A stretch of 36,132 nucleotides of DNA from Syntrophobacterales bacterium (GTDB lineage: Bacteria > Desulfobacterota > Syntrophobacteria > Syntrophobacterales > Thermodesulforhabdaceae), in NCBI GenBank assembly GCA_026992355.1, contig JALXAE010000210.1:11870-48001 (forward strand), given 5' to 3'. Below the pieces are notes generated by a model, which was not told the origin of the DNA, searched no databases, and worked only from the letters and a program-made list of their open reading frames with translations. The position numbers were made by a program, and so were the translations under genes. Within the stretch, counting starts at the first letter, position 1, and every line of letters begins with the position of its first letter. Below, in pieces: positions 141-33,061 of this stretch.

Positions 141-171
141 GGGCGAATGCAAGTTTTTCCTGCATTCGCCC
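141..171. terminator. Strong hairpin downstream of the minus-strand membrane protein gene
   Basis: Perfect 11-bp inverted repeat GGGCGAATGCA (141-151) / TGCATTCGCCC (161-171) with a 9-nt loop, just past the stop codon at 197. No clear U-tract on either strand. Confidence 0.45.
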
Positions 172-196: not shown

Positions 197-1483
197 TTAG
201 TGTCCTTCATCGTGAACATAGAAAGGCCACTTATGGAAGAACCATTCATTCCAGAGAAGAGGAATAATCCACCAGAAGTTCCACACGAGGGATTCACCAT
301 GGACAAACCTGTGAGACAGTTCGGTCATGTGGTGATTGCCGAGTCCCCAGTGGCCAAAGTTGAGATAATAGTAAAAAATGTAATTGATAGCTGCAAAGAC
401 CAGGACGCCTACTGTTCTGAACCAGAAGGCTCCCCAGGAATCTTTGTCCTGCATTGGACACATATCGTCAAAGTAATGGTGCCAAATTAGGAATGGAATA
501 AGAGTAAACCCTGCAATTTCCGCTGCATGGTACCAGAGGAAACGAATAAGTTCAGCATCGTTTGGTTTGGCTTCCTTCAGGTGATGTATCGTCTCATGGG
601 GCAACCACGCTGGTGCTATCTTTGTGCATATATAAGCTATTAAGTAACCAAGAATTACTGTGCAAATAAAAGAAATGATGCCTTTCCATGGTTGAGGCAA
701 TGTAATGACACTCCAGGGTTTCATTCGCCACACATTGGGTGTCATAAATAAAACAATGATCATCCATTCCCACCATCCGAACACCCAGTGAACATGGCTT
801 ATTCCCGCGATTTTACCCCACCACGGAAAGTTTAATCCAAAGGAGCTTCCTAAAAGTTTTCCATACACAAGACCCCAGAAGGGAACGATAAGAACTGTGT
901 AAAAGAAAAGGGTTAGAAATGAACACCAACCCAATTCAGCCCAGCCGGCTCTGGGCTGAGGAAGATCGCTGGGTCTTATGGGCCATTTGGCGAAAAGTAT
1001 TGTAACAAAAGGATAGCTGAAAAATCCAATCAAAACGAAGCAAACAACAGCACTTTCGGCAAAATGTTTTTTCTTCATTACTTCCAGAGACAAAGCTTTA
1101 CCATTTGGCAGGACGGCTTTACCCGCTGCAGCCAATGCATTTAGATTGCTCTGGCTGAGGAAATTAAAGCCTAAACCCAATATTCTGTAAAAGACTACAT
1201 GAATAACAAACCAAACCAGAATCAGGTTTACAATGGTTTCCACAATGCCCCTTGCAGGTTGTGGTAAATTATGAAAGGGCCAGTCGCCAAAAAACATGTG
1301 CTGCCACAGTCCAACAAGAATCATCATTGCTAAGTAGAGAACAAATGGATAAGGAAATGCCTTCACTGGTCCCCTTGGGTCACTGAAGATGTACCAAGTA
1401 ATCAATGCGACCACAAAAAAGCAAATAAATGAAATGATTCCTGTTAAGGGTTGTCCCCATCTAGGACGTAGTTGCTCTGCCAT
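197..1483 (-). CDS. Multi-spanning integral membrane protein with internal WP..LPQP..G repeats, function unknown
   Basis: 428-aa ORF with RBS-like GGGGAG upstream of the ATG. Many hydrophobic Trp/Phe-rich segments. Recurrent motifs: DWPFHNLPQPARG, KWPIRPSDLPQPRAG, KPWSVITLPQPWKG, plus degenerate copies at both ends. Confidence 0.85.
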   Translation of the reverse strand: MAEQLRPRWGQPLTGIISFICFFVVALITWYIFSDPRGPVKAFPYPFVLYLAMMILVGLWQHMFFGDWPFHNLPQPARGIVETIVNLILVWFVIHVVFYRILGLGFNFLSQSNLNALAAAGKAVLPNGKALSLEVMKKKHFAESAVVCFVLIGFFSYPFVTILFAKWPIRPSDLPQPRAGWAELGWCSFLTLFFYTVLIVPFWGLVYGKLLGSSFGLNFPWWGKIAGISHVHWVFGWWEWMIIVLFMTPNVWRMKPWSVITLPQPWKGIISFICTVILGYLIAYICTKIAPAWLPHETIHHLKEAKPNDAELIRFLWYHAAEIAGFTLIPFLIWHHYFDDMCPMQDKDSWGAFWFRTVGVLVFAAINYIFYYYLNFGHWGLGNHHMTELSHRFVHGESLVWNFWWIIPLLWNEWFFHKWPFYVHDEGH

Positions 1484-1610
1484 AATTAACTCCCCTTCTT
1501 AGAATTAACTAGTTGAATTGAATAATGAATTCCTCCACGAAACTAAAAATGCAGGTTAGCCCCCTCTTCAATGTGAAACGATATTTTTCCCTAGATTTTC
1601 ACCTCCTTTC

Positions 1611-3014: not shown

Positions 3015-3191
3015 TTGCTTTCGATTGTTACCTGAATACAGGAAGTTTTTCAATGGATCAAAGAGCAGTCAGAATTTTATGCCTTCCTGAGAAGTAGTGG
3101 ATATACTATAATGCTTGCAAAGAGTTTACAAGATATCGGGCGGAAGCCAATAGATGTAAGTCAATATGATTAGGTGAGGAGGGAACTGCTA

Positions 3192-4889
3192 ATGGGTAAC
3201 AAAATCTTTTCTGAATCTGCTATCGAGCGGATCGAACAGGAATACAAGGAATGGCTTAAGGATTATGAGAAGGCATTACAAAAACTTCCAGAGAGATTAG
3301 AGAGATTTTCTACCGTTTCTGACATGGAGGTAAAACCTCTCTACACCCCGCTGGATATCAAAAACAAGGATTATCTGGAAGAAATAGGCTTTCCCGGTAG
3401 GTATCCATTTACTCGAGGGGTCCAAACTACCATGTACAGAGCGCGGCTCTGGACGATGAGGATGTTCGCGGGGCTCGGTACAGCAGAACAAACCAATGAG
3501 CGCTTTCACTATTTGATTAATCATGGTGAGACCGGTTTGAGCACGGCATTCGATTTCCCCACATTAATGGGTTATGATACTGATTCTCCTCTGGCAAGGG
3601 GCGAGTGTGGTAGATGTGGGGTTGCCATTGATACCATAGAGGATATGCAAAGGCTTTTTGCGGGAATTAATCTTGAAGAAGTAACCACATCTATGACCAT
3701 TAATCCTCCTGCGTCAGTTATTTGGGCAATGTATATTGCGAACGCTGAAAACGAAGGCTATGATCGCAAGAAATTGGGTGGAACCATTCAAAATGATTGT
3801 TTGAAAGAATTTATCGCTCAGAAAACTCTAATGCTTCCACCAGAACCAAGTCTGCGTCTTGTTGTGGATACTGTTGAGTTTGGTACCAGGGAGGTTCCTC
3901 GCTGGAACACAATAAGTATTAGTGGTTACCATATAAGGGAAGCTGGTGCCACAGCTGTCCAGGAACTTGCTTTCACAATATATGATGGAATTACCTATGT
4001 GGAAGAATGTATCAAACGTGGCCTCAATGTAGATGATTTTGCTGGTAGATTATCTTTCTTTTGGAATTCCCATATAGATTTCTTTGAAGAAATAGCCAAG
4101 ATGAGAGCTGCCAGAAGAATGTGGGCTCGTATAATGAAAGAAAGGTTCAAGGCCCAGAAACCTAGATCCATGTTGTGCCGTTTCCATGTTCAAACAGCTG
4201 GATGTTCTCTTACAGCCCAGGAGCCCTATAATAACATTATCAGGACTACAACCGAGGCATTAGCTGCAATCCTGGGTGGTTGCCAGTCTTTGCACACCAA
4301 TTCTCTGGATGAAGTATATATGATTCCAAGCGAATTTGCCGTGAGAATTGCCTTGAGAACCCAACAAATACTTGCTGATGAAGTTGGAGTGGCAAATGTT
4401 ATTGATCCACTTGCTGGTTCTTATTTTGTTGAAGCTCTGACTGACCGTATGGAAGAAGAGGCTCTTGAATACATCAGGAAACTCGATGAAATGGGCGGAA
4501 TGGTTGCAGCCATCGAAAAGAATTATCCACAGATGGAGATTGCCGACAGCGCATACAGGTTTCAGCAACAGGTGGAAAGCGGAGAAAAAGTTATAATAGG
4601 AATAAACAAGTTTCCCTCCGAGATTCCACCTCTTGAGGTAATTCATATAGATCCTGAAATTGAGCGGCTTCAGATTGAGCGGTTGCATCAATTTAAGGAA
4701 CGCCGAGACAAAGTAAAATTGCAGAAAGCTCTTGATGAACTGAGAAAGCGATGTGAAGGGCCTCCTTGTTGGGAGAATAATGTTATGCCGGCACTGATTG
4801 AGGCAGTCAAAGCGGGAGCTACTGAACAGGAATGCTGTGACGTTTATCGAGAAGTTTTTGGAACTTATACAGATCCTGCATCTTTTTAA
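3192..4889 (+). CDS. Adenosylcobalamin-dependent acyl-CoA mutase large (catalytic) subunit, methylmalonyl/isobutyryl-CoA mutase family
   Basis: ORF track starts at GTG 3174, but GGAGGGA followed by ATG at 3192 is the better start. Family motifs: YPFTRGVQTTMYRARLWTMRMFAG, GLSTAFDFPTLMGYDTDSP, GTIQNDCLKEF, SISGYHIREAGA, RLSFFWNSHIDFFEEIAKMRAARRMWA, SLHTNSLDE. Confidence 0.95.
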   Translation: MGNKIFSESAIERIEQEYKEWLKDYEKALQKLPERLERFSTVSDMEVKPLYTPLDIKNKDYLEEIGFPGRYPFTRGVQTTMYRARLWTMRMFAGLGTAEQTNERFHYLINHGETGLSTAFDFPTLMGYDTDSPLARGECGRCGVAIDTIEDMQRLFAGINLEEVTTSMTINPPASVIWAMYIANAENEGYDRKKLGGTIQNDCLKEFIAQKTLMLPPEPSLRLVVDTVEFGTREVPRWNTISISGYHIREAGATAVQELAFTIYDGITYVEECIKRGLNVDDFAGRLSFFWNSHIDFFEEIAKMRAARRMWARIMKERFKAQKPRSMLCRFHVQTAGCSLTAQEPYNNIIRTTTEALAAILGGCQSLHTNSLDEVYMIPSEFAVRIALRTQQILADEVGVANVIDPLAGSYFVEALTDRMEEEALEYIRKLDEMGGMVAAIEKNYPQMEIADSAYRFQQQVESGEKVIIGINKFPSEIPPLEVIHIDPEIERLQIERLHQFKERRDKVKLQKALDELRKRCEGPPCWENNVMPALIEAVKAGATEQECCDVYREVFGTYTDPASF

Positions 4890-4916
4890 GTATTTCGATA
4901 AGAGGAGGGAGACTTA

Positions 4917-5336
4917 ATGAGCCAGGAAAGAAGATTAAGGATATTGGTAGCAAAACCGGGTTTGGATGGACATGATCGTGGAGCACGGGTTATAGCTCGG
5001 GCCCTCCGCGATGCTGGATTTGAAGTTATTTATACCGGCTGTCACCAAACCCCTGAACAGATCGTTCAGACTGCTATACAAGAAGATGTGGATTTGATTG
5101 GGTTGAGTATTTTGTCTGGAGCTCATAATTATTCTTTTCCGCGAATTATGGAGCTCCTGAAAGAAAACGGGGCTGACGATATAACTGTCATAGGGGGAGG
5201 AATTTTTCCCCTGGAAGATATTCCCAGACTTAAGGAGATAGGCATCAAAGAGATATTTACTCCAGGCAGCAAGCTGGAAGATATTGTGAAATGGATTCGT
5301 GAAAATGTGAAACCAAGAAAAATGGATGCGGCTTAA
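4917..5336 (+). CDS. Acyl-CoA mutase cobalamin-binding (C-terminal type) subunit
   Basis: [34 protein letters not shown] contains the DxHxxG B12-binding motif; also GLSILSGAH and GGGIFP. Confidence 0.95.
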
Positions 5337-5350
5337 ACAGGAAAGAAGGT

Positions 5351-6337
5351 GTGCTGATGAGTGTTGTTGAACAGGTTCTAAAAGGTGATGTGCGAGCTGT
5401 TGCACGACTTTTAAGAGATATTGATGACCAAGTGCCATCTACACGGAGTATTCTTCAGCAATTATATCCCCATACTGGGAATGCTTATGTAATTGGTATC
5501 ACAGGCCCCCCTGGTGCGGGAAAGTCGACTTTAGTTGATCAGATGACAGCTTATTATCGGAAGCAAGGAAAGACAGTGGCTATCCTTGCAGTAGATCCTA
5601 CCAGTCCCTTCAGCGGTGGGGCCATCCTGGGTGACAGAATAAGAATGCAACGCCATTTCCTCGATAAGGATGTTTTTATAAGGAGTCTTGCTACCAGAGG
5701 GCACTTTGGCGGAATAACTAAGTCTACTCATGACATGATTACTGTTCTGGATGCGATGGGCAAAGATATTATCATGATTGAAACTGTTGGTGTTGGTCAG
5801 GGAGAGGTAGAAATCGCTGAATGTGCTCATACCACTCTGGTTGTTACCGTTCCTGGACTGGGGGATGATATTCAGGCCATAAAAGCCGGTATAATGGAAA
5901 TAGGTAACATTTTCGTAGTAAACAAAGCTGATAGAGAAGGTGCAAAGAAAACCGTTCAGGAACTCAGAAATCTTCTTGAGATGGGTAAGAAATTCCGGAT
6001 GGAAACGGGAGCGGGGAAAAATGGTTGGGATCCACCGGTAGTTGAAACTCAAGCTCACAAGGGGATTGGCGTTGATACATTGTGTGGAGAAATAGAAAAA
6101 CACAGGGAATATTTGACTGCTCAGGCTCCGGAGGAATTGGAACAAATCATGCTGAAGCGGGCACTTCATCAATTTTCTGCAACACTTAAAGATGAGCTAT
6201 TTAAGGAAGTAATTAAGCGCATGGAAGGAAAGGGGCTTAAACTTGAGGATGTTGCTAAGAAGATTATGGCTAAAGAGATAGATCCTTATTCCCTGTCAAG
6301 AACTCTTATTAAGGAAGAATTCAAAGAAGACGCTTGA
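5351..6337 (+). CDS. meaB: MeaB/ArgK-type G-protein chaperone of B12-dependent mutase
   Basis: Walker A GITGPPGAGKSTLVD; AVDPTSPFSGGAILGDRIRM; IETVGVGQGEVEI; NKADREGA. Lies in the mutase operon. Confidence 0.93.
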   Translation: MLMSVVEQVLKGDVRAVARLLRDIDDQVPSTRSILQQLYPHTGNAYVIGITGPPGAGKSTLVDQMTAYYRKQGKTVAILAVDPTSPFSGGAILGDRIRMQRHFLDKDVFIRSLATRGHFGGITKSTHDMITVLDAMGKDIIMIETVGVGQGEVEIAECAHTTLVVTVPGLGDDIQAIKAGIMEIGNIFVVNKADREGAKKTVQELRNLLEMGKKFRMETGAGKNGWDPPVVETQAHKGIGVDTLCGEIEKHREYLTAQAPEELEQIMLKRALHQFSATLKDELFKEVIKRMEGKGLKLEDVAKKIMAKEIDPYSLSRTLIKEEFKEDA

Positions 6338-25574: not shown

Positions 25575-28500
25575 TTGCTGAATGAAAGCGATCTGGTACC
25601 ATATTCCTGTTCGGAACTCCCTACAGGACCTTTTCTGGTTTTTGCACCTCATCCTGACGATGAAACATTTGGGATGGGGGGAACTATTGCAGCCGCGACA
25701 GATGCAGGAATTGAGGTAAATGTAGCTTTCGTAACGGATGGTTCATGCTGTGGGGATCCTGCTATACGGAGAAAAGAAGCGGAAGCTGCGTGTAACCTGC
25801 TGGGAGTAAAAGAGGTTTATTTCTTCCCCATAAAAGATAGAAAAGTATTAGAAGAACGTGAATGTCTTGAGGAGAAACTTAAAGAGATCTTTTCTAAAAC
25901 CTTAGTGCGCACCATTTTTCTTCCTTCCATTTTTGAATTTCATCCTGATCACAGGTCCACAGCCTTAATTGTTTGGGAATATTTGAAAAGGAGTAACTGG
26001 AAGGGAGACGTCTGGTTTTATGAAATTAGCAGACACGGCGAAGTTAATAAATTAATTTGTATAGACGGTTACATAGATAGAAAAATTTCGGCCATACGAC
26101 TATATAAAAGCCAGTTATCTGAAAGAAATTATGAAGACATCATTCTGGCCCTTAATAAATCCAGGACATTTACTTTAGAAGGAGTTAATTACGTTGAGGG
26201 CTTCTTTCGCCTTTCGTTGTCGGATTCTTTGAGCAAGTATATTGGAACGCAAAGTTTATATCTGGCGGGTGTTAGAGAAATGGGATTGGACGAGGTCTTT
26301 GAGAAACCGTTGGTTTCTGTAATTGTGAGAACTAAAGATAGACCGAAACTTCTTAAAAGAACTCTCAAAAGTATAGCAAATCAAACTTACAGGCATCTGG
26401 AGGTTGTAGTTGTAAATGATGGTGGAGTTGAATTGTCTGTTGATGAGTTGCAGTCTATCCTTGGCAGTATAGAACTGAAATACATTTTTCTGAAAAATGG
26501 CGCCGGTAGAGCAGGGTCTGCAAACGAAGGGATCCGAGCAGCGACGGGCAAGTATGTTGCTTTTCTTGACGACGACGATGAGTATTACCCTGAACATATA
26601 GATGTTTTGGTTCATTGCTTGGAAGGTTTGGATTTTAAAGGTGCCTACACAAATTGCAGAATGGTCCGTAAAGAATTCGATCCTAAAATCAAATCGTGGT
26701 CGGATGACAAAGAATTGCTGGTTTTTGGACAGCCTTTTAGCTATGAATTCCTGCTTTTTGAAAATTATATTCCTTTGATTTCAATTATGTTTGAGAGGAC
26801 AGCATTATTAGAGACGGGCGGCTTCGATGAGAATCTGGAGAAGTTTGAGGACTGGGATTTACTAATAAGATTTTGTTCTAAATATCCCCTTTATCACATA
26901 AATACCATTACCTGTAAGTACAATTCATGGTCGGAATCTATGCAGATCCTGGGAGGACCTGATAGAAAATCTGAAGATGCTTATCTAAGGGTGTTGTCCA
27001 AGCATTTTTTCAGGTTAAATCCTCAAATTGTTGCCAAATGGCAATTTGAGACTCGATACCTTATGGAAGGTAGGTATAAAAATATATTTGAGCCTGCAGC
27101 TAAGAGGCTATTAGAAGTTGAGAAAAAACGGGTAATGCTCGAAAAGAAGGTTTCTGAGTATGAATTTCAAATTGAGGATTTAAAAAGAAAGCTGGGCAGT
27201 TACAAAAATAAGAATGAACAGCAAGCGGCTATTATTAAGACATTACAGCAACAAATTAGTATTTTTGAAAGAGAGGTTCAAAATCTTAGCCTCGAGCTGG
27301 GAGCCATTTACAATAGCGTTTCGTGGAAACTGATTAATAAGTTGCGTAAGTTTGCTTTGTGGCTTATTCCTCCAGATACGCGAAGAAGAAGGCTTTTTGA
27401 ATTTCTAGTAAAGAAACCCGAAAGCGCCACTGCTCCGAATGTAACATCTACATCCTCTATTCGGAATAGTATTCAAGTGAATGCCACAAAACCTAAGTCT
27501 TTCGACCCGGATAACTTTTCTGTTTGTTTTGTTGTTAATCATTTGGATGCTGGGCAACGCTATCGCGGTTATAACATGTCGGAGTATCTGAAATATGGGG
27601 GCGTGGAAAGCCAGGTAATACAAGATACAGAAGTAGCGGACAGCTTAACAAAGATTTTTGATTATGATGTTATAGTACTTTATAGATTATTTTATTCTGA
27701 CTATCTGGCAGAGCTGGTGAAAGAATTAAAGCGACATGGAAAAGTGGTTGTGTACGATATAGATGACTATATTTTTGACGATAGTGCTCTACCCTATCTC
27801 AATGTCCGAGGTGTTTCCAAAGATGAGCTTAGGAGAGTAATAAATAATCATAGAAGAGCTATGGATTTGTGTGATTACTGTATTGTATCAACAGATGCTT
27901 TATCGCGTATATTGTCGGGTATAAACAAAAAAGCATTTGTATTAAGAAATGGTCTATCAGATGAACTGATAAAAATATCAAAAGATGCATTGAAAAACAA
28001 GTTACCGGATACTGATATAATTAAAATTGGTTATTTTAGCGGTACCGCAACTCACGATAGGGACTTTTTGGAAGCTTCCGATGCCTTAATATATGTATTA
28101 GAAAATTGTAGGAATGTTAAACTTATTGTGGGGGGACATCTTAAACTGGATAAGCGGTTTGATGTATTTATCGATAATGGGAAGGTAGAGTTCTTACCTT
28201 ATGTCCACTGGAGATACTTACCATATAATTTAGTGAAAGCTCATATCAATCTTGTTCCTCTAGAGCAAAATATATTTAATGACGCAAAGAGTGAATTAAA
28301 ATATTTTGAGTCGGCAATATTGCAGATTCCAACAATTGCTACCCCAGTAGAGTCGTATAAATATGCGATAAGACATGGAATTAATGGATTTCTCGCTAGT
28401 AGCACAGAGGAGTGGATTGAGTGTTTGGAGAAACTGATTAAAGATAGAACTTTGCTGAAGGAGATGGGAGCAAATTGTTACGATCATGCAATTAGCAATT

Positions 28501-28601
28501 ACTCACCTCGAGCAATGTCGAAAAAAACGGTAAGTGTTTACAAAGAAATAATTGAATTACACTTATCTTCACTTGACAGTACCAATCTTAAGATAGCTTA
28601 A
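25575..28601 (+). CDS. Multidomain PIG-L deacetylase / GT2 glycosyltransferase / GT1-GT4-like C-terminal domain
   Basis: TTG start with GGAG RBS. PIG-L APHPDDETFGMGG and FHPDHRS; GT2 VSVIVRTKDRPKLLKRTLKSIANQTYRHLEVVVVNDGG and FLDDDDEYYPEH; coiled coil ~500-580; C-terminal GT-B-like region (VYDIDDYIFDD, IGYFSGTATHDRDF, LVPLEQNIFNDAKSELKYFESAILQIPTIATP). Confidence 0.88.
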   Translation: MLNESDLVPYSCSELPTGPFLVFAPHPDDETFGMGGTIAAATDAGIEVNVAFVTDGSCCGDPAIRRKEAEAACNLLGVKEVYFFPIKDRKVLEERECLEEKLKEIFSKTLVRTIFLPSIFEFHPDHRSTALIVWEYLKRSNWKGDVWFYEISRHGEVNKLICIDGYIDRKISAIRLYKSQLSERNYEDIILALNKSRTFTLEGVNYVEGFFRLSLSDSLSKYIGTQSLYLAGVREMGLDEVFEKPLVSVIVRTKDRPKLLKRTLKSIANQTYRHLEVVVVNDGGVELSVDELQSILGSIELKYIFLKNGAGRAGSANEGIRAATGKYVAFLDDDDEYYPEHIDVLVHCLEGLDFKGAYTNCRMVRKEFDPKIKSWSDDKELLVFGQPFSYEFLLFENYIPLISIMFERTALLETGGFDENLEKFEDWDLLIRFCSKYPLYHINTITCKYNSWSESMQILGGPDRKSEDAYLRVLSKHFFRLNPQIVAKWQFETRYLMEGRYKNIFEPAAKRLLEVEKKRVMLEKKVSEYEFQIEDLKRKLGSYKNKNEQQAAIIKTLQQQISIFEREVQNLSLELGAIYNSVSWKLINKLRKFALWLIPPDTRRRRLFEFLVKKPESATAPNVTSTSSIRNSIQVNATKPKSFDPDNFSVCFVVNHLDAGQRYRGYNMSEYLKYGGVESQVIQDTEVADSLTKIFDYDVIVLYRLFYSDYLAELVKELKRHGKVVVYDIDDYIFDDSALPYLNVRGVSKDELRRVINNHRRAMDLCDYCIVSTDALSRILSGINKKAFVLRNGLSDELIKISKDALKNKLPDTDIIKIGYFSGTATHDRDFLEASDALIYVLENCRNVKLIVGGHLKLDKRFDVFIDNGKVEFLPYVHWRYLPYNLVKAHINLVPLEQNIFNDAKSELKYFESAILQIPTIATPVESYKYAIRHGINGFLASSTEEWIECLEKLIKDRTLLKEMGANCYDHAISNYSPRAMSKKTVSVYKEIIELHLSSLDSTNLKIA

Positions 28602-31525: not shown

Positions 31526-33061
31526 TTAGGAATGTGAAGACTTAAGCAAATCTGTAACTTTTTTCACCGGTTGAAAGGTTTCCGAGGGAACCTCTATAAA
31601 AATGGTAATCCAGTGAGCCATGGACCCGTTCCAAAGACCCGGATGTTCCAATACCTTAATGGGTTTTCCTTTATAGTGTTTTTCGGTGATAATTACACTG
31701 TTCGGATCTTTAAATTTTTCCAAATCAAAGGGCTGACCGTTTGCATCTCTAAGTGAGCAGACAATGTCCACGGGGTTAAAATGGGTGCTGGTCTCCCAGA
31801 TCAGCCTCTGAGTTTTATCTAATAGGTTGACCTGGGCTTTTTCCACTATTTGTTTTGACTCAGCCTTTTTATCTATGATCCAAAAGGGTCCTCCCCCTGG
31901 CTCCCCAGCGTTAGGTACCATGCCACACACTCTTATAGGTCTGTTTAATGTCGAATAAAGATATTTCTTTTTTTCATCTTCCATCAAATAGGAATAGGTT
32001 TCAGACAAGGGGATATTCCATTCGATGCAAAATTTTTCCGCCTCCATGAGAAAGTTTTTATCTCCGTTGTGAAACTGCCTTACTAACCTGTGAACATTTT
32101 GTTCCACCGTGATTAACAAGCCTCCCAGAATCTTTTTCCATCTGACCACCAGAGGTTTTAGACGGTCTGAAACTACGTTGTCTATGTTCTTGATAAATAC
32201 AATATCACCTGCGAATTCATTCAGATTCTTCAAAAGAGAGCCGTGCCCTCCTGGCCTAAAAAGCAACCGACCCTTTTCATCTCGAAAGGGCACGTTATTC
32301 ATGTCAACGGCAATAGTGTGAGTTGACGAGCTTTGGACCGAAAAGGTTATGTCCAGGGTTAAATGATCGTATTTTTGCTTCAAACGCTTGAGCTCCTCGC
32401 TAAAAAGGCTTAAGAATTCCTCACCTACAGTGAAATGGAGCCTGCAAACGTCTTGTTCATCTCTTAGGTATTCAATGGCTTCGACTATATGTTCTTCAAA
32501 GGCAGTTCGAATTTCATTTTCGTATTTGTGAAAAGGAATGAGAGCTTTAGGCAGAGTTCCAAAATTTAAGTCGTGAAGAATTATTTGTGCCAATTTTTGT
32601 AAAGGTCCCTTTGATAAATACTCCTCGATATTTACTCCACTTTTTTTGCAATATTCATTGATGAGGTCGAAAAAGGCAAAGTCTTGTATGTTTTCAAAGA
32701 AAACAATAGTGTCCTTAAGACTATTGTTCTCTTCTCTTAACTTAAGATCTTCCAATGTAATGGGTTTTCTGATCTCCAGTATCTTCCATAAACACTGGAA
32801 CATTCTAGTTGCGGCCCCGGAGGCAGGTACAAATTTGGACATGCGCCCCTTTCTTAATTCTTTTTCATAAATAGAAATGTATTGTTCCTGTAAGTTTTCG
32901 GGAATTACTTCTATTCCATCACCTAGTTTACAGGGTCTGTTGAGATGGACGTACCGGTTGCCTTTTTTGAAAAACTCTATGTATCTAAAAATTAATTCAC
33001 TTGTTATTCCGAGTTCAGTAATTTGTTTCAAGTCCTCTTCTGTTAATGTAAATTGCCCCAT
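31526..33061 (-). CDS. DUF4301 family protein
   Basis: FVPASGAATRMFQCLWKIL; RPGGHGSLLKNLNE; CGMVPNAGEPGGGPFWI. Sugar-nucleotidyltransferase-like motifs in a protein of unknown function. Confidence 0.8.
   Translation of the reverse strand: MGQFTLTEEDLKQITELGITSELIFRYIEFFKKGNRYVHLNRPCKLGDGIEVIPENLQEQYISIYEKELRKGRMSKFVPASGAATRMFQCLWKILEIRKPITLEDLKLREENNSLKDTIVFFENIQDFAFFDLINEYCKKSGVNIEEYLSKGPLQKLAQIILHDLNFGTLPKALIPFHKYENEIRTAFEEHIVEAIEYLRDEQDVCRLHFTVGEEFLSLFSEELKRLKQKYDHLTLDITFSVQSSSTHTIAVDMNNVPFRDEKGRLLFRPGGHGSLLKNLNEFAGDIVFIKNIDNVVSDRLKPLVVRWKKILGGLLITVEQNVHRLVRQFHNGDKNFLMEAEKFCIEWNIPLSETYSYLMEDEKKKYLYSTLNRPIRVCGMVPNAGEPGGGPFWIIDKKAESKQIVEKAQVNLLDKTQRLIWETSTHFNPVDIVCSLRDANGQPFDLEKFKDPNSVIITEKHYKGKPIKVLEHPGLWNGSMAHWITIFIEVPSETFQPVKKVTDLLKSSHS

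Follow-up and report, generated by a model that had tools for sequence, protein, structure and literature searches.

Two described groups of transporters come closest to the protein considered here. AtoE-type proteins (PF02667) comprise about ten or more helices, are presumed to take up short-chain acids and have CoA-transferase genes as neighbours. The SatP/YaaH acetate transporters (PF01184) are likewise membrane proteins for the transport of small acids, with about 200 aa and six helices. Both recall the product of a gene at positions 197-1483 of the window, by which we mean the whole stretch of DNA analysed (36,132 nucleotides, G000:C210:11870-48001, from a draft genome of 3.2 Mb). However, neither the PF02667 nor the PF01184 profile is matched by this protein or by any of 42 relatives. 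The source genome carries no AtoE gene and one SatP-type gene, which is located away from the 197-1483 gene. Owing to this SatP-type gene the 197-1483 protein is not the sole candidate for acid transport. AtoE and the 197-1483 family coexist in several genomes, and a mutual exclusion of the two across genomes was not found. The one pointer to an AtoE-like role, i.e. short-chain fatty-acid transport, would be gene linkage.

Searches of Pfam, NCBIfam and PDB sequences with the protein returned no relative at a usable score and, in Pfam and PDB, no match to heme-bearing cytochromes or oxidases. Foldseek runs on two structural models gave nothing usable either, in agreement with the original prediction, which assigned the protein to no named family. 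Abhydrolase_9_N (PF15420) was rejected as a candidate. It reaches 21.4 bits against a gathering cut-off of 27, covers only part of the profile and is not followed by a hydrolase domain; weak matches of the same kind occur in 6/42 relatives.

The gene and its adjacent elements

An intact ORF with an ATG start codon spans exactly 197-1483 and is present as a single copy in the genome. The features of the gene and of a linked mutase set are compiled in Table 1. The hairpin in the gap 3' of the gene may represent a transcript terminator or attenuator. Two other loci (L063 and L065) have smaller hairpins in the equivalent place, there with T-rich tails. Rfam families were not found around the gene, and a scan for promoter and terminator consensus sequences gave no matches in excess of shuffles.

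Downstream of the gene the source genome encodes two class III CoA-transferases on the same strand. A scaffold gap of ten Ns (L107:11860-11869) abuts the CoA-transferase start codon on its upstream side, and the window starts straight after it. An equivalent CoA-transferase pair follows the gene in L028 and L044, where the gap contains no Ns.

Table 1. Features of the 197-1483 gene, its product and the linked mutase set (window coordinates; residues refer to the 428 aa product).
Feature	Position	Strand	Basis or details
Membrane protein, 428 aa, ten predicted transmembrane helices	197-1483	-	ORF, conservation, AlphaFold model
Plausible ribosome-binding stretch, purine-rich, AAGAAGGGGAG / AAGAAGGGGAGTTAATT, just 5' of ATG	1484-1500	-	sequence
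Hairpin, 13 base pairs, in the gap 3' of the gene	141-171	-	fold -32.8 kcal/mol, z -6.1
Module 1, residues 5-69	1277-1471	-	QPLTG; helices 13-33, 47-64; end W68-P69
Module 2, residues 72-168	980-1270	-	QPARG; helices 77-105, 141-163; end W167-P168
Module 3, residues 173-257	713-967	-	QPRAG; helices 178-211, 232-250; end K255-P256-W257
Module 4, residues 261-344	452-703	-	QPWKG; helices 266-292, 307-341
Module 5, residues 345-421	221-451	-	degenerate linker KDSWG; helices 350-373, 398-415; end H417-K418-W419-P420-F421
Helix-8 polar motif R314, H319-x-x-E322, H335-H336-x-x-D339-D340	464-544	-	conservation, family B comparison
B12-dependent mutase large subunit, Phe/Gln substrate site, isobutyryl-CoA-mutase-like	3174-4889	+	residue comparison
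Mutase B12-binding small subunit	4917-5336	+	ORF, order beside large subunit
MeaB/ArgK-like GTPase chaperone of the mutase	5351-6337	+	ORF, conserved order

Five two-helix modules

The protein is built from five two-helix units, the ends of which are set by W-P and Q-P-x-x-G. Exact QPxxG copies stand at residues 11, 75, 176 and 264; a count of four was never reached in 200,000 shuffles of the protein (mean 0.036, maximum three). The motifs quoted in the original prediction were all found. Its N-terminal copy, described there as degenerate, is in fact an exact QPLTG, while the copy near the C-terminus is indeed degenerate in unit 5 (about residues 347-351).

Profiles of the units were compared with each other and with 25 column shuffles, whereby hydrophobic and polar columns were shuffled separately. 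All 25 shuffles were exceeded by U1-U2, U1-U4, U2-U3, U2-U4, U3-U4 and U2-U5, hence by 5/6 pairs among units 1-4; U1-U3, U1-U5, U3-U5 and U4-U5 did not surpass all of them. The likeness resides mostly in the linker and the first helix of a unit. The boundaries of modules 1-4 rest on conservation, the AlphaFold model and this comparison. Those of module 5 rest on its position and the model, with weak sequence support from module 2 only. Unit 5 is thus counted as a module mainly by its position and predicted structure. Module 2 additionally contains a loop of variable length.

AlphaFold, provided with the 42 relatives, predicts ten long helices (pLDDT 84.8, pTM 0.85). The proposed series of five tandem modules is borne out by model, motif count and unit profiles, least so for unit 5. 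Odd helices in the model begin directly after QP, in module 5 after DS. A second model, of a divergent relative in L095, repeats the ten-helix plan (pTM 0.81).

In both models strands of at least three residues are limited to residues 5-7 and a single one close to the C-terminal end. As these are the sole ones, the termini would have to pair, and such pairing would join up the five modules as a ring. A ring of this kind is probable, as read from the secondary-structure output. The side with the termini and the WP/QP linkers carries 11.9 Lys/Arg per 100 residues, versus 5.5 on the opposite side. Based on this about twofold difference both termini and the linkers should face the cytoplasm. A soluble catalytic domain is not present.

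Foldseek against the PDB yielded no match at E ≤ 0.001 for either model, cytochrome and oxidase folds included, and the TM-scores of the listed matches are at most about 0.3. Viral structures gave no match. Apparently the predicted fold is absent from solved structures. It would follow a simple building rule, namely five two-helix repeats that are opened by QPxxG and closed by WP.

Conserved polar residues

Across the 42 relatives 118/428 residues are invariant, and the WP and QP linkers account for many of these (Q11, P12, G15, Q176, P177, G180, Q264, P265 and G268 as well as W68, P69, W167, P168, W419 and P420). Many polar invariant residues are located in the membrane part, beyond the linkers. 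E239 (in helix 232-250 of module 3), H319 and E322 sit inside predicted helices and could bind a carboxylate or couple protons. H319 and E322 of the helix-8 polar motif are also common to the sister family B (see below). From sequence comparison, this motif is a candidate substrate, ion or metal site.

A richness of His and Trp in the C-terminal third had been pointed out before, and H319, H335, H336 and H417 as well as many Trp are indeed invariant, as is H62 closer to the N-terminus. The suggestion that these residues are heme or metal ligands fared differently. The invariant His are there, but no invariant Cys exists across the 42 relatives, no recurrent redox partner was seen among the best 25 of 60 unclassified neighbour families, and genes of acid activation are found instead. 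These observations neither support nor refute the ligand idea.

Genes of acid activation often adjoin the family

The neighbourhood was surveyed in the 64 loci where sufficient flanking sequence was available to the left and right of the gene. An acid-activating enzyme is encoded within 600 bp of the gene in 36/64 loci, and an activating or beta-oxidation gene in 45/64. Farther out activating enzymes are not found at all, neither in 105 flanks at 3.5-5 kb nor in 96 flanks at 5-6.5 kb. The activating neighbours belong to three mutually unrelated families, most commonly AMP-forming ligases (21 loci), followed by class III (8) and class I CoA-transferases (7). Since the three families are unrelated, the free acid is their common denominator. 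Many loci show gaps of operon-like length, and at two loci the genes overlap by 4 bp. Acyl-CoA dehydrogenase genes adjoin in some loci. Electron-transfer flavoprotein and iron-sulfur oxidoreductase genes are not recurrent among the best 25 of 60 unclassified neighbour families.

The linked mutase

The best PDB match of the mutase large subunit is 2-hydroxyisobutyryl-CoA mutase. Tyr and Arg of human methylmalonyl-CoA mutase are aligned to Phe and Gln in the window mutase. We take this Phe/Gln pair to mark isobutyryl-CoA mutase; a literature search for the respective residue numbers found nothing. The pair is present in 13 loci, i.e. in the window mutase and 12 other linked mutases. A methylmalonyl-CoA (propionate) pathway was rejected for the linked mutase, which has Phe/Gln and not Tyr/Arg, and the source genome possesses a separate mutase with Tyr/Arg (contig C301). 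At least in the source lineage the linked mutase therefore points to butyrate/isobutyrate rather than propionate. By default the set at 3174-6337 would be named methylmalonyl-CoA mutase.

Across genomes, a Phe/Gln-type mutase occurs in 18/19 carriers of the family versus 21/41 non-carriers (Fisher p 0.001). Within the same family and order the association is not significant (p 0.26). Co-occurrence is thus confounded by ancestry and was rejected as evidence. One publication reports isobutyryl-CoA-mutase-type clusters in a syntroph, with its genes placed near a sulfate-reducer-associated group (PMC5017805).

Distribution and sister families

Relatives of the 197-1483 protein (family A) are encoded at 79 loci in GTDB species genomes with 61-92% identity. 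The carriers are nearly all named as sulfate reducers or syntrophs of the former Deltaproteobacteria, including Desulfacinum, Desulfocicer, Desulfobulbus, Desulfoprunum, Syntrophaceae and Syntrophobacteraceae. The spread is patchy. Matches were obtained in 22/60 close relatives and in 25/395 genomes of the phylum, both counts including some genomes with sister-family proteins only. The scan of the genome collection detects close relatives, and the whole-genome searches cover the own phylum. Plasmid homologues were not found.

Family B (unnamed, about 470 aa; L151-L156, L160) is homologous by profile search with E down to 7e-18. It shares DPRG, WP, QPxxG and the helix-8 H-x-x-E but differs by an additional C-terminal helical stretch, and it matches no Pfam family. 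Its genes precede two others, one for a metallo-beta-lactamase-fold protein exported by Tat and one for a protein in which a long N-terminal part lies ahead of a CobW domain. These trios are conserved (L152:2299-6900, L153:3413-7904, L156:4333-8770). Judged by eye from the sequence, ExbB/ExbD-like genes come next in some loci.

Family C (unnamed, about 365 aa; L158, L175, L176, L177) has the five-module plan as well, with ten hydrophobic peaks, W-P ends, four exact QPxxG (three in L176) and an HPAFVG. The plan appears clearer in these sequences than in family A. Several family C genes have phenylphosphate-synthase-like subunits with PPDK_N and PEP-utilizer domains encoded on one or both sides (L158:7187-8275, L175:7616-8725, L177:7021-8172) or are located near UbiD-type carboxylases. 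Family C thereby adjoins an activation step like family A, but in phenylphosphate synthase, that is phenol-activation, operons. The sequence link between C and A is weak (E about 1e-4), which makes common descent likely but not proven. WP and QPxxG-type linkers together with five two-helix units are the hallmark of the proposed superfamily A+B+C, and the 197-1483 protein shows them; unit 5 of family A is degenerate.

A putative permease for short-chain acids

We give about even chances to the 197-1483 protein being a cytoplasmic-membrane permease for short-chain monocarboxylic acids, e.g. butyrate or isobutyrate. It would act as a carrier, probably ion-coupled, or as a facilitator, and pass the free acid on to the CoA-activating enzyme of its own operon, of whatever type. 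Acyl-CoA formed in this way would then enter B12-dependent isomerisation and beta-oxidation. This reading is the most likely one because entry of a free short-chain acid is common to the three activating chemistries, beta-oxidation and isomerisation. Transport, substrate, ring and coupling ion are what we infer; architecture, topology, conservation and linkage come from sequence or prediction. The reading is favoured by the close and operon-like linkage to activation and beta-oxidation, the isobutyryl-CoA-mutase-like neighbour, ten helices with positive-inside linkers and invariant charged residues but no catalytic domain, the similar placement of family C and the missing AtoE of the source genome. 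Several observations weigh against it. Other acid transporters are available, namely the SatP-type protein in the source genome and AtoE in several carriers. The conservation, with many invariant Trp, His and Asp, exceeds that of most carriers, and the neighbours of family B are of another kind. In the source genome the join to the CoA-transferase is interrupted by the ten Ns and the hairpin. Moreover, short-chain acids in their protonated form can cross membranes without a carrier.

The same linkage would also suit an exchanger or exporter, which might move acetate or another product acid out and the substrate acid in. CoA-transferases indeed yield a second free acid that needs removal, but AMP-forming ligases, the commonest activating neighbours, give off no second carboxylic acid, and we regard this role as rather improbable. 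Less probable again is a role as membrane anchor or scaffold, in which the protein would bring the activating enzyme to the membrane, so that diffusing acids are trapped by vectorial acylation, and would carry nothing itself. The tight linkage to several kinds of activating enzyme and the conserved cytoplasmic linkers, which could bind partners, speak for such a scaffold. However, one surface would need to bind three unrelated enzyme families, and the polar invariant residues are not confined to the linkers. Somewhat better placed than either, though still unlikely, is a redox role in the membrane, with electrons moving from acyl-CoA dehydrogenases towards the quinone pool via heme or metal on the invariant His. 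Those five His and the dehydrogenase genes at some loci fit this role. Against it stand activating enzymes as the closer and commoner partners, the lack of recurrent electron-transfer genes among the best 25 of 60 unclassified neighbour families, the absence of invariant Cys and the missing cytochrome or oxidase fold match.

The permease candidate is a member of a strongly conserved, uncharacterised family whose fold is apparently new and whose job is probably of a known kind. More tentatively, and in our view doubtful, families A and C could form a new transporter or channel class, in which a single chain forms a pseudo-fivefold ring of five two-helix modules round a central path, delivering short fatty acids (A) or phenolics (C) to activating enzymes in anaerobes. 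Anaerobic carbon turnover has butyrate, isobutyrate and related acids among its major intermediates, and the uptake of these acids in sulfate reducers and syntrophs is poorly assigned. In the consulted passages of papers on these bacteria the pathways are described, and no carrier of this kind is named. A very conserved protein marking fatty-acid operons is a direct, testable candidate for this uptake.

Other genes of the window

Farther along, the window encodes a 1008-aa protein (25575-28601) that combines a PIG-L deacetylase-type domain with a family 2 and a group 1 glycosyltransferase. A full-length DUF4301 protein is located at 31526-33061.
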